From Minisyncoccota bacterium (GTDB taxonomy: Bacteria > Verrucomicrobiota > Verrucomicrobiia > Methylacidiphilales > Verrucolacustridaceae): 41,510 nt of DNA. The position numbers and the translations under genes were made by a program. Under the pieces are notes generated by a model. It was not told the origin of the DNA, did no database searches, and saw only the letters and a list, made by a program, of their open reading frames with translations. Shown piece by piece: positions 9,105 to 13,247 of the stretch (within the stretch, counting starts at the first letter, position 1; each line of letters opens with the position of its first letter). The stretch is taken from NCBI GenBank assembly GCA_030054195.1, contig JASGCJ010000011.1, forward strand, positions 1-41,510. The letters are read 5' to 3'.

Positions 9105-10643
9105 CTAACGTTTGCGGAGCAGTTCGAGCCTGCAGGCAAAGCCGCCGAGGTCGACGGTTTGTTGGAATTCGATACGAAGAGAGGAGGCGGGAGGTTTGAT
9201 TTTTAGGGGGTTGATCCATACCATTCTGCCACCGGGGCGGAGCGCGACGGAAGCTACGGTGAAGAGCTCTTCCAAAAGACCCCTGAGGTTGGGAATGGGG
9301 ACACGTTTTCCAAGCGGGGGATTGGTGATGAGAAGAGAGATGCTGGCTGGGCCGTAGTTGGGGATCTTTTCAAAATCGCGAAAGTCGCGAAGAACAAAAT
9401 CGGCTGAAACGCCAGGGAAGCGGGCGGCCTGCCAGTTGGCGCGGGCAGCTTGAATGGCGTCTGGAGAGAGGTCGGTTCCGAGAATTCGACGAACTCCGGT
9501 CAATCGAACTCGTTCAATGAGTTCGAGGGCGGAGCCGCAGAAGGGGTCCCAGACAGTTTCGTCGGGAAAAGGGCCGGCGAGGCGGGCCATCGCGGCGGCG
9601 AGGGGAGGGTGGGAGGCGGCGGGAACATCCTGTTGTCGGTAGGGGAATCGGGGATCGGGGGAGAGGCGGGGACGGAGTTCGACAAAATCGCCTATCGGGG
9701 TGGGGTGGATTTCGATTGCCCAGGGGGCTTCGCGGGAGTCGTTGAGAAGATCGGGGCAAAGGGAGTACACGCGTTGGGCGATTTGGCGGACAGCCGAGCG
9801 CTGGTGGCCTTTTCCCATCCACTCGAATCGGTAGCGGATGGGGCCATCGGTAAAGGTTTGAAGGAGGGAACGGCTGAGGGGGGAAGCAATCAGAGTCGCA
9901 AGGGGTTCCACCACGGAGGGAGATTTTTGTAGAGTTCCCAGAAGGAAGGATGCGGTTGAGAAACAGCGAAGAGAGAAAAGATCGTCCAGACGAAAGGGAG
10001 CCGTAGGGGCCAAGGTGAGAAGCCCTGGACGAATCTCCACAATCCGAAATGGGGTTTTCGAATCTTTGACTTCTTGCGAAAGAATGGGTTCGAGGCCAGT
10101 TCGGCAACGGAGGTGGATACGGAGCTGGGAAACGTCGGAAAATGGAATCGAGAATCGAATGGAGGAGGGTTTTTGTTGGCGAGCGAGGTTGGCTTTCGCT
10201 CTCTGTTCATTGAGAAGAGGCAGGGAGATGCCTTGTTGGCGGATAAGATCAAGAGTGGCGGAGCCGCCGATTTTCTCGAGGGCTTTCCCAAGAAACTTCT
10301 TCTCACGATCTGCGGAGGTTTTGGAAAGGAGGGAGAGCAACTGGCGTTCTTCGGTGCGACCCGCTCCGATTTTGGGAAGGGCGGTCATGGCGTAGCGCCG
10401 AATCTTTTCGGCAGGATCGGCCAGGAGAGAGAGAAGCCATTGTCGGACGGGTTCTTTGAGAGAAGGCTGAGATGCCTCGGTAAATCCAGCGCCGATAGCA
10501 CGGATAAGAGCGACGGTCCGGAGCTTTTCGTCCGGAGAGGCCGAGTTGAAGCGGGGGACTTCCTGTTCCCAAAGGCGGAGCCAAGGGATGGCGCGGAGTT
10601 CCCGATACAGATCTTTCACGGGATGAGCGGACTTCTTGGGCAT
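9105..10643 (-). CDS. HEAT-repeat / THUMP-like RNA methyltransferase fusion
   Basis: A 512-residue protein. Residues about 1-150 are alpha-helical repeats of the HEAT type (for example DPAEKIRRYAMTALPKIG). A middle part (about 170-330) starts with CRTGLEPILSQEV, resembling the THUMP/ferredoxin-like region of RlmL and TrmN/Trm14 enzymes. The C-terminal part (about 345-512) is a Rossmann methyltransferase with SAM motif DPFCGSALELIE, the acidic loop GTDLSPDAI and the catalytic-type motif NPPLGKR, as in N2-guanine methylases of the UPF0020 family. The probable target is tRNA or rRNA guanine, but which one is not visible. The HEAT extension is unusual. It is adjacent to trhO, another RNA-modification gene, and divergent from cinA-recA. 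Confidence 0.82.
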   Translation of the reverse strand: MPKKSAHPVKDLYRELRAIPWLRLWEQEVPRFNSASPDEKLRTVALIRAIGAGFTEASQPSLKEPVRQWLLSLLADPAEKIRRYAMTALPKIGAGRTEERQLLSLLSKTSADREKKFLGKALEKIGGSATLDLIRQQGISLPLLNEQRAKANLARQQKPSSIRFSIPFSDVSQLRIHLRCRTGLEPILSQEVKDSKTPFRIVEIRPGLLTLAPTAPFRLDDLFSLRCFSTASFLLGTLQKSPSVVEPLATLIASPLSRSLLQTFTDGPIRYRFEWMGKGHQRSAVRQIAQRVYSLCPDLLNDSREAPWAIEIHPTPIGDFVELRPRLSPDPRFPYRQQDVPAASHPPLAAAMARLAGPFPDETVWDPFCGSALELIERVRLTGVRRILGTDLSPDAIQAARANWQAARFPGVSADFVLRDFRDFEKIPNYGPASISLLITNPPLGKRVPIPNLRGLLEELFTVASVALRPGGRMVWINPLKIKPPASSLRIEFQQTVDLGGFACRLELLRKR

Positions 10644-10856
10644 AAAGGAGCATCGGTTTGGAGGGGGAGAAACTCAAGCCCCGCCTAGGAAAGGACATGA
10701 GAAGAAGTGGGTTTTAAAATATATAAAAAAGTAGTGATCCTAGGACAGCCAATGTCCTTTCTAGGGGTTCAAGATTCTCGCATGACAAAACAAGGTGGCT
10801 ATCGGATCTGTCTCCGCGGGGCGGGAGGTCGGGCTTGGCAGGGCCAAAAAACGAGT
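10644..10856. promoter_or_regulatory. Divergent control region between the methyltransferase and cinA-recA
   Basis: The longest non-coding stretch of the window, 213 bases. It contains an AT-rich core at about 10711-10731 with TATATAAAAAA-like sequence usable as -10 elements on either strand, and a set of inverted repeats at 10684-10765. I see no clear TTGACA-type -35 box and no TGTTC-N4-GAACA LexA-type site. Open frames here lack coding character; CinA homologues start at about 10857. Confidence 0.5.
10684..10765. repeat. Inverted-repeat set with two competing left arms
   Basis: CCTAGGAAAGGACAT (10684-10698) pairs with ATGTCCTTTCTAGG (10752-10765) with one unpaired base. A second left arm, CCTAGGACA (10739-10747), can pair with the same right arm, forming a short hairpin with a five-base loop and a two-base bulge. 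The AT-rich block lies between the two left arms. Confidence 0.7.
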
Positions 10857-12107
10857 ATGCTAGGCAGGGTGAAGATTGAATTGATCACAACGGGCTCGGA
10901 GCTTCTTTTGGGGCAGGTGCTGAATTCTCATCCCGGATACTTGTCGGGACGGTTGGCGGAGTTGGGGTTGATGTTGTCGAGACAGACGGCGGTACCGGAT
11001 GGAAAGGACGCAATCGCGGCTGTGCTGAAGGAGGCGTGGGGGCGGAGTGATTTGGTGATTGTGACAGGGGGATTGGGGCCGACTTCGGACGATGTGACAC
11101 GGGAGGCTGTGGCGGCTGTATTCAAAAAGGAAATGGTGTTTCATCCGGAGATTTTGGAAAAGATTTTGGGATATTTTGCAGCACGGGATTTAAAAGCCCC
11201 TGAGATGGTTAAGGTTCAGGCAATGGTGCCTAAGGGAATGGAGGTTTTGCCGAACGAGAGGGGGACAGCACCCGGGCTGATGTGGGAGGAAGGGGGAAAG
11301 ATGTTGGTGATACTGCCAGGGCCTCCGCGGGAGTTAGGGGCGATGTTTGAGGCAAGGGTAGAGCCGAAATTGCGGGGTTGGGCCAAGCCTGGGGTTAGGA
11401 CGAGAGTTGTGCGGGTCTTCGGGATTGGGGAGTCAGCGGTCCAAGAGAAGTGCGAGGAGGCGTTGAGAGGGATTGGGATAGAGGAAATAGGGTATTGCGC
11501 GCGACCGGGTGAGGTGGACGTGAGATTGCGGGGTGTGGAGGAGAAGGTTTTGCAGGCGGGTGTGGATAAGTTGAGAGAGTGCTTGGGGGTGGCGGTATAT
11601 GGGGAGGGGGTGGAGACGATGGAGGAGGTGGTGGTGGGGTTGGCTCGGGCGGGAAAGATAAAGTTGGCTACGGCTGAGTCGTGTACGGGGGGATTGGTGG
11701 CGAGCCGAATCACGGATGTGGCAGGGGCATCGGAGATTTTTGTTGGAGGTTGGGTGACGTATTTGAATGAGGCAAAAGCGAGAGAGTTGGGGGTAAAGAG
11801 GGAGAGTTTGGAGAAATATGGGGCGGTGAGTGGGGTAGTGGCGGGGGAGATGGCGGTAGGGGCGAGAGAAAAATCAGGGGCGGACTGGGCGGTGGCGGTG
11901 ACGGGGATTGCTGGACCTGGGGGTGGGAGTGCGGGAAAACCGGTGGGGCTTGTCTATCTTGGAATCGCGGGGGCTGGAGGGGTGGAAACTATTGAGAAGA
12001 AGTTGGTTCCAGAGAGGAAGACATTTAAGGCGATGGCTTCCCAGGCAGCCCTCAATCTGCTTAGAGTAAAACTTTTAGCGAACCCTTTTCACAAAACGGA
12101 GGTTTAA
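10857..12107 (+). CDS. cinA: CinA family protein (competence/damage-inducible, nicotinamide-nucleotide amidase)
   Basis: The 416-residue product has the two CinA domains: an N-terminal MoaB/MogA-like domain (about 1-170, with TTGSELLLGQ, VPD and the GGLGPTSDD loop) and a C-terminal PncC-type amidase domain (about 260-410, with ESCTGG carrying the probable nucleophilic Ser, and VTGIAGPGGG). Such proteins deamidate nicotinamide mononucleotide and, in the long form, can hydrolyse ADP-ribose. ATG 10857 is chosen because family members start just before KIELITTGSELLLG; GTG 10869 is an alternative. Six bases separate it from recA, reproducing the classic cinA-recA operon. Confidence 0.93.
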   Translation: MLGRVKIELITTGSELLLGQVLNSHPGYLSGRLAELGLMLSRQTAVPDGKDAIAAVLKEAWGRSDLVIVTGGLGPTSDDVTREAVAAVFKKEMVFHPEILEKILGYFAARDLKAPEMVKVQAMVPKGMEVLPNERGTAPGLMWEEGGKMLVILPGPPRELGAMFEARVEPKLRGWAKPGVRTRVVRVFGIGESAVQEKCEEALRGIGIEEIGYCARPGEVDVRLRGVEEKVLQAGVDKLRECLGVAVYGEGVETMEEVVVGLARAGKIKLATAESCTGGLVASRITDVAGASEIFVGGWVTYLNEAKARELGVKRESLEKYGAVSGVVAGEMAVGAREKSGADWAVAVTGIAGPGGGSAGKPVGLVYLGIAGAGGVETIEKKLVPERKTFKAMASQAALNLLRVKLLANPFHKTEV

Positions 12108-12113
12108 TCCATT

Positions 12114-13247
12114 ATGGCAATCAAAACATCAGCAACCGACAAAAGCGAAAGAAACGAAACCCAAGCTCACAAAGACAGCGCGAAAGCCTCGGAGCGGCGA
12201 AATCTCGATTTAGCTCTGCAGTCGATCGTCAAAACGTATGGGGAGAACGCGATCATGCGGCTGGGGGACGCGGCGGCGAAGTTGAAGATCGATGTCGTAC
12301 CAACGGGATGTTTCGCAATTGATCAGGCTTTGGGGGCGGGGGGATTTCCGAGAGGGCGGATCATCGAGATCTTCGGGCCTGAATCATCGGGAAAGACAAC
12401 CCTCACATTGACAGCGATTGCGAATGCACAGAAACAGGGTGGAACGGCGGCCTTTATTGATGTGGAGCATGCGTTGGATCCTGCCTACGCACGTAAGTTA
12501 GGCGTGAATATGGATGAGCTACTGGTTTCTCAACCCGATTCAGGAGAGGAGGCGCTGAACATCGCCGAGACTTTAATTCGGTCCAATGCGCTGGATGTGG
12601 TGGTGTTGGACAGCGTGGCGGCGCTCGTGACCAAACATGAGTTGGAGGGGCAGATTGGGGATGTGACGGTGGGTGCCCAGGCAAGATTGATGAGTGCAGC
12701 GATGCGAAAGTTGACGGCACTGATTAGTCGTGCCCGAACGGTGGCGATCTTCACCAACCAGATCCGCGAAAAGATTGGGGTGATGTTTGGGAGTCCGGAG
12801 ACAACTCCGGGAGGCCGAGCCCTCAAATTTTACTCGAGCGTGCGAGTGGATATTCGGCGCGTTACGGCAATTAAGCTTCCGGATGGGACGGTGGTAGGGA
12901 ATCGTACCCGAGTCAAGATTGTGAAGAACAAGGTGGCGCCGCCCTTTGCCGAAGCGGAGTTTGATATCATGTATAATGAGGGCATTTCTCGAACGGGATC
13001 GCTGATTGATGCAGCGATTGAGCATAATGCAGTTGAAAAGAAGGGTGCTTGGATTGCGTTTGAGGGCAAGCAGTTGGCCCAAGGACGAGATGCAGCAAAA
13101 GAGGAGCTTCGAAAAGATCCTGCGCTCTACGCTCGTGTCGAAAAGGCCTTAAAAGCAAGGCTTGCTGGTGAAGGGAAGGAGCCTGACAAGAAAGAGTCGG
13201 AAAAAAGCAAAGAGCCCATGGTTGTGGTAGGAGGGAAGGAAAAGTAG
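12114..13247 (+). CDS. recA: Recombinase RecA
   Basis: RecA coats single-stranded DNA, drives strand exchange and triggers SOS self-cleavage. The 377-residue protein has Walker [10 protein letters not shown] (about residues 82-90), the MAW-like EALNIAE region, the L1/L2 segments and the conserved ATPase core through [14 protein letters not shown]. It carries an unusually long, charged N-terminal extension of about 30 residues before NLDLALQ and a Lys/Glu-rich C-terminal tail. GGAGG at 12098-12102 sits 11 bases before ATG 12114. Cotranscription with cinA is likely. Confidence 0.98.

Follow-up and report, generated by a model that had tools for sequence, protein, structure and literature searches.

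The closest described counterpart of the system considered here is DriD of Caulobacter crescentus, which is reported to be a WYL activator switched on by single-stranded DNA (ssDNA), with the consensus operator ATACGAC-N7-GTCGTAT (PMC12340889). According to the same account, the sites bound by DriD overlap the -35 position and keep a constant distance to a weak -10 element; they are listed for didA, bapE, recJ, dnaG and driD, and the one at driD acts on the divergent operon instead of driD itself (PMC12340889). In mycobacteria, PafBC is described as a heterodimer of which only PafB contacts promoter DNA, near -24 (PMC11804915, PMC12340889). Regulation of recA by WYL activators is already known for PafBC (PMC11804915), and recA is also mentioned for DriD (PMC12340889, PMC11804915).

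How the SOS response is lost or replaced in bacteria is not settled. The locus analyzed here bears on this question, as a conserved palindrome upstream of cinA and recA suggests, from its sequence and surroundings, that recA may be induced independently of the classical LexA/SOS repressor. The window is a contig of 41,510 nucleotides (C71) from an assembly of 1.87 Mb in 100 contigs that is 87% complete. The palindrome is located between a divergent methyltransferase-like gene on the minus strand and cinA-recA on the plus strand. The features of this region, and the regulator gene discussed below, are as follows.

9105 to 10643, minus strand: methyltransferase-like gene; its NCBIfam methyltransferase matches are all below cut-off
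10684 to 10698, no strand assigned: first arm, CCTAGGAAAGGACAT; a lone AGGACA half-site, not conserved
10711 to 10738, plus strand: AT-rich sequence immediately in front of the operator; may be UP-element-like
10741 to 10759, no strand assigned: putative operator, TAGGACAGCCAATGTCCTT; TAGGAC-N7-GTCCTA with one mismatch, GAC at 10744 to 10746 and GTC at 10754 to 10756
10752 to 10765, no strand assigned: right arm; the conserved operator takes in its ATGTCC part only
10770 to 10775, plus strand: -10-like element CAAGAT, exactly 10 bp past the operator
10782 to 12107, plus strand: cinA, 441 aa; PF02464, PF00994 and PF18146, with NF001813 above cut-off; likeliest start ATG at 10782
12114 to 13247, plus strand: recA, beginning 6 nt past the cinA stop; presumably co-transcribed with cinA
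G000:C67:4734-5729, elsewhere in the same genome (G000): WYL regulator gene, 332 aa, with WYL and WCX domains

The first-pass annotation had described two left arms competing for one right arm, and all three arms are present at the positions it gave: CCTAGGAAAGGACAT at 10684-10698, CCTAGGACA at 10739-10747 and ATGTCCTTTCTAGG at 10752-10765. The first arm and the right arm can form 14 pairs with one bulged base, a match reached by none of 300 dinucleotide shuffles of 10644-10781 and thus not expected by chance in this sequence. Conservation singles out a different element. In an alignment of four close relatives, the first arm is recognizable in two (G017 and G013) and degenerate in the other two (G006 and G014), while the right-arm extension TTTCTAGG is kept in none of the four. 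The proximal dyad, TAGGAC-N7-GTCC, precedes cinA in all 15 genus genomes with a readable upstream region, and 13 of the 19 columns of the site are invariant among these promoters. The cinA upstream set had a match in 18 of the 21 genus genomes, 16 of them with the cinA 5' end and two as weak matches only; the sixteenth, from G020, has Ns in the upstream region. Genus members share ancestry, such that counts across the genus are not independent. What has been conserved is one palindrome of 19 bp at 10741-10759, GAC-N7-GTC with outer TAG/CTA arms, and the competition between two left arms is a feature of the window sequence alone. Sequence comparison supports the proposal that the cinA-recA promoter has a palindromic site for a protein; the proposed double operator is not supported, its first arm being an unconserved, lone half-site. 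Outside the genus, the site is absent from all six cinA upstream regions examined from other families of the order, and the link to recA is therefore a genus-level one.

On the minus strand, between 10644 and 10680, AGCATC and ACTCAA blocks 17 bp apart are conserved by eye in the aligned relatives. Read in the direction of the methyltransferase-like gene, these blocks look like its own conserved promoter, resembling TTGAGT-N17-GATGCT and located outside the palindrome, and we do not think that it is under the control of the palindrome. The earlier suggestion of a repressor acting on both divergent genes is thus not favored; the position of the site in front of a conserved -10 would suit an activator of cinA.

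The spacer of 22 nt between the site and the ATG has only two invariant positions in the 15 cinA promoters, an A in column 12 and a T in column 16. In each of the 15 genomes the site is followed by N10 and then by a hexamer NANNNT, whose second-base A and sixth-base T are the two key positions of the bacterial -10 element. A TG two bases ahead of the -10, as in extended -10 promoters, is found in 10 of the 15, the window's promoter not being among them. The fixed N10 and this TG were first noticed by eye and counted afterwards. A/T-rich stretches upstream of the cinA site are also seen by eye in the relatives.

All 15 genomes have an ATG 22 nt past the site, and in 14 of them it shares the reading frame of cinA; the one exception, G004 (L290), may reflect an assembly error or a real change. 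Since the frame is open from ATG 10782 and an ATG stands at the same distance from the site in relatives, cinA most likely starts there and not at GTG 10872. The resulting N-terminal extension of CinA, about 30 residues in the window (10782-10871) and 20-79 in relatives, is in frame and poorly conserved. The simplest reading of this layout is that the transcript would start at or near ATG 10782, with the palindrome centred at -32.

A genus-wide pattern search identified a second conserved place for the palindrome, the start of a gene for a regulator with HTH, WYL and WCX domains. The copy in the window's genome is at C67:4716-4734, where the site ends on the A of the regulator's ATG. Thus, the check proposed in the first-pass annotation, for conservation in relatives and further copies in the genome, found the cinA site kept across the genus and a second conserved copy in the same genome. 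The WYL gene was detected in 15 of the 21 genus genomes, with the palindrome overlapping its start codon in all of these except G007. It was not found in five of the 15 genomes that carry the cinA site (G001, G003, G004, G014 and G017; 71-90% complete), which we attribute to assembly gaps.

The site is nearly confined to a few promoters. Across the 21 genus genomes, most of them incomplete, exact TAGGAC-N7-GTCCTA occurs 16 times: at 14 WYL start codons, at two cinA promoters (G015 and G019), and nowhere else. Allowing one mismatch adds 20 places, of which 10 are cinA promoters and 10 are others. The reversed pattern gave 137 forward places against the 36 real ones, and is therefore not a matched background. 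The shorter dyad GGACA-N5-TGTCC, with one mismatch allowed, is not distinctive (34 places versus 37 for the reversed control). An interspersed repeat was considered and rejected, as the window's own genome contains, within one mismatch, the WYL and cinA sites and two places inside ORFs. The recurring TAGGACACCTCGTGTCC and singleton sites that lie inside ORFs are chance-like. The recurring TAGGACGAGTCTTGTCC site falls within an ORF at both L348 and L349.

The 332-aa regulator matches WYL (PF13280, 69.5 bits) and WCX (PF25583, 64.7 bits) above cut-off and HTH_11 just below it (24.3 bits; cut-off 25). A model of a relative that is 98% identical (L196) has a mean pLDDT of 72.6 and a pTM of 0.41, and its domain arrangement is not reliable; at this low confidence it places a three-helix HTH and a pair of strands at the N-terminus. 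Foldseek ranked DriD chains best (E 2e-18), followed by PafBC (1.8e-15), CapW and BrxR, with low TM-scores of about 0.3. VIA-align with the same poor model did not separate the candidates (Z of 13.8 for DriD, 13.0 for BrxR, 12.9 for CapW and 12.8 for PafBC; rmsd 10-16).

To relate the site to the WYL family beyond the genus, we took 80 WYL regulator loci from named genomes and scanned a region of about 150 bp in front of each gene. A palindrome was counted if it had the register and spacing of the genus site and paired at five or more of the six arm positions, and all 64 inner triplets were scored. GAC-N7-GTC was found upstream of 34 of the 80, compared with three for the next triplet and a median of zero. 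By spacer length, 34 palindromes have seven bases between GAC and GTC, one has three, and none has 4-6 or 8-12. Control windows inside the WYL gene gave 0 of 80. The genus loci among the 80 overlap the start-codon set described above, so that the independent part comprises the other 66, of which 21 carry the site. The triplet and spacer counts were made knowing the DriD consensus, the GAC-N7-GTC core of the genus having been found beforehand. The GAC-N7-GTC code thus travels with this WYL family. Within about 150 bp, the remaining 46 homologues have no such palindrome with at least five pairs; some of them may be paralogues or have misjudged starts.

In a set of 15 WYL homologues from outside the genus, seven have the palindrome nearby and eight do not. 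The overlap with the start codon seen in the genus recurs at five of the seven (G021, G030, G039, G048 and G091). The site of G021, from another family, is TAGGACATTGGCTGTCCTA; read on the opposite strand, its core is identical to that in the window, GGACAGCCAATGTCC. The window's genome also has a second, more distant WYL gene (C87, 35% identity), and the first 300 bp of its locus (L195) contain no GAC-N7-GTC.

The promoter layout at cinA extends to genes that diverge from the WYL genes, where A and T occupy the same -10 columns in 19 of 21 promoters (G030 and G082 do not fit). Among the named WYL loci, the columns fit 21 of 32 testable sites, comprising 13 of 13 in the genus and eight of 19 outside it; since only eight of 19 fit there, the layout is not general outside the genus. 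The divergent neighbour in the genus encodes a Zn-ribbon-like protein of 64 aa with CxxC pairs (in L196 from about 5937 to about 5740, minus strand). Its start, ATGGAAAC, does not vary among the 14 genus loci, and the operator-N10-NANNNT layout is present in its promoter. The regulator gene stands alone among the ORFs of L091.

Six near-matches lie outside credible ORFs (G001:C18, G015:C94, G020:C73, G007:C125, G001:C89 and G008:C307; the surroundings of G020:C73 are partly Ns). All six have the -10 A and T exactly 10 bp past the site on one strand, versus none of five near-matches inside ORFs. The chance expectation is 4.8% per strand, and the G015 and G020 sites precede the same gene, leaving five independent cases; L348 and L349 were left out of these counts. 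At the G020 and G015 sites (L346 and L347), TAGGTCAGTTTTTGTCCTA is followed by N10, GATGAT and the ATG of a short frame beginning MPKNKKSTKRK, which is a candidate target.

The site at one of these five genes, TGGGACAGAATTTGTCCCA, is present in five LexA-bearing genomes (G001, G002, G003, G010 and G012), followed in all five by N10, TAGGGT (TAAGGT in G012) and an ATG at 21 nt. In G001 the gene behind it encodes 925 aa with a PD-(D/E)XK nuclease domain (PF12705, 84.5 bits), and a gene for a UvrD-type helicase (PF00580, 109.5 bits) comes next. We take this nuclease-helicase pair to resemble AddB-AddA, the pair that processes double-strand-break ends. The pattern searches run did not detect a site of this kind in the window's genome. 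The site is also absent from all six umuD promoters examined. Upstream of umuD in the window's genome (L070) there is a TAGACTTAGGAGTCTA palindrome, which was not seen by eye in five aligned relatives.

A related motif behaves differently in G075, a genome of the same class and another family (e.g. L324-L343), where TAGGACA-N5-TGTCCTA is scattered genome-wide. A sample of 400 kb contains 19 places that match 13 or all 14 bases, nine of them exact, against none for the reversed control. ORFs of at least 100 aa contain 17 of the 19, and the pattern listing has 31 rows. This is not a promoter regulon; the motif perhaps serves chromosome organization or another kind of genome-wide binding.

The site at cinA-recA is conserved, is nearly restricted to a few promoters, has a DriD-like geometry and stands at a fixed spacing from a -10-like element. 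We consider it probable, at roughly three chances in four, that the palindrome is the operator of a DriD-type WYL activator encoded elsewhere in the genome, which would drive cinA-recA without LexA. The regulator encoded at G000:C67:4734-5729, whose own start codon overlaps a site of the same kind, would bind the palindrome. At cinA-recA the palindrome occupies the place of a -35 element, and a weak -10 follows it after 10 bp. If the regulator works as DriD does, ssDNA produced by damage would bind the WYL domains, and a WYL dimer on the site would anchor RNA polymerase, such that cinA-recA would be induced without LexA. The analogy is strong in anatomy; as for function, we infer binding by the WYL protein, its dimeric state, the ssDNA signal, activation and the start at the ATG from the resemblance.

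The same WYL regulator could instead be a repressor whose dimer covers the promoter until it is released by ssDNA or another ligand, which we regard as unlikely. WYL repressors of defence systems are reported to work by release on ligand. The site over the start codon of the WYL gene would suit autorepression, and the AT-rich DNA upstream of the cinA site could hold another promoter, with a start inside the palindrome. However, the fixed 10 bp to a conserved -10-like motif, repeated at several genes, is the layout of DriD activator sites, and it is mainly for this agreement that activation is preferred over repression.

It is improbable that the palindrome is the operator of another palindrome-binding regulator, one that also controls the WYL gene. 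Such a regulator would account for the cinA-site genomes in which the WYL gene was not found, and the pairing of the WYL protein with the site is itself deduced from sequence. The half-sites and spacing, however, equal those of DriD, and GAC-N7-GTC accompanies the WYL gene at the 34 of 80 loci noted above, including the 21 of 66 outside the genus.

An unusual LexA operator has to be considered, as recA is a classical LexA target and LexA motifs are reported to differ widely among bacterial groups (PMC8565304). The 21 genus genomes were searched with PF01726 and PF00717. A LexA-type protein was found in nine (G001, G002, G003, G007, G010, G012, G015, G018 and G020), that of G010 passing the NCBIfam LexA cut-off. 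None was found in the other 12, which include the window's genome and its five closest relatives by RecA (G006, G013, G014, G016 and G017). These six genomes are 78-96% complete, and the probability that independent gaps alone removed the gene from all of them is about 6 in a million. Six of the 12 LexA-less genomes have a UmuD-sized S24 protein only. S24 proteins over the PF00717 cut-off number at most one per genus genome (14 of the 21 have one; L300-L312 and L070), either LexA-sized or UmuD-sized and never both.

The LexA start codon is overlapped by its own palindrome, TATACA-N2-TGTGTAATG, in eight of eight loci examined (L305-L312), the ninth, in G007, being outside the count. This is presumed to be the LexA auto-operator. 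The 15 cinA promoters match it poorly (at best 9-11 of 16), and the cinA palindrome is therefore apparently not one that LexA reads. The LexA motif of Verrucomicrobia is reportedly TGTTC-N4-GAACA; the auto-palindrome of the genus is unlike it, and the best matches to it at cinA promoters are 10-12 of 14. The WYL site is present at cinA both in genomes with LexA and in those where LexA was not found, including the window's subclade. With a different palindrome at LexA itself, a LexA operator at cinA is very improbable, and the first-pass remark that this is not a LexA-type site is borne out.

An RNA element with competing hairpins in the cinA leader, acting as an attenuator or switch as the first-pass annotation also suggested, is hardly credible despite the 14-pair match, because the long pairing is not conserved, a WYL gene carries the same core in the opposite orientation, no Rfam family was found in 9900-11600, and the transcript would start downstream of the palindrome if the -10 at 10770-10775 is used.

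Six LexA-bearing members of the genus (G001, G002, G003, G010, G012 and G015) already have the WYL site at cinA-recA and no LexA-like site there, which argues that any change of regulator preceded the loss of LexA. We tentatively propose, with chances a little short of even, that a DriD-like, ssDNA-sensing WYL activator took recA over from LexA in this genus, together with the double-strand-break nuclease-helicase operon in part of it, before LexA was lost, and that the intermediate and the end state are both present today. If this is true, the genus holds a case of SOS replacement by a non-homologous regulator. The predicted circuit is small, consisting of the WYL gene and its divergent neighbour, cinA-recA and, in five relatives, the nuclease-helicase operon, and it can be read from sequence in LexA-bearing and LexA-less members of one genus. 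No description of it was found among titles and abstract openings of the open papers searched. New aspects are the phylum, the LexA-less setting and an intermediate state that can be read within a single genus. The analysis also provides an operator code for uncharacterized verrucomicrobial WYL regulators, GAC-N7-GTC with 10 bp to the -10, which agrees with the DriD structures.

Compared with known systems, the circuit shares with LexA/SOS its presumed purpose, damage-induced recA, whereas the protein family and the motif are different and the sign of control is probably opposite. BrxR and CapW, described as WYL repressors of phage defence, are likewise WYL-domain regulators; the site position here fits an activator, however, and no defence genes were seen beside the WYL gene in L091. 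PafBC, also made up of WYL proteins, is reported to be activated by ssDNA and to activate the recA promoter, but it is described as a heterodimer, in contrast to the single gene and palindrome found here. DriD differs, as far as its published description goes, in its outer arms (ATAC/GTAT rather than TAG/CTA), in that the site here overlaps the start codon of the regulator itself, and in its targets, the conserved one here being cinA-recA, with the nuclease-helicase operon in five relatives; furthermore, Caulobacter has LexA, which was undetected in the window's subclade. The two systems agree in the domain order HTH, WYL, WCX (PMC12340889, PMC4211646), in the identical inner half-sites and spacing of GAC-N7-GTC, in a site placed between the gene of the regulator and its divergent neighbour, and in the overlap of the site with the -35 position at a constant distance from a weak -10, which in this genus is 10 bp.
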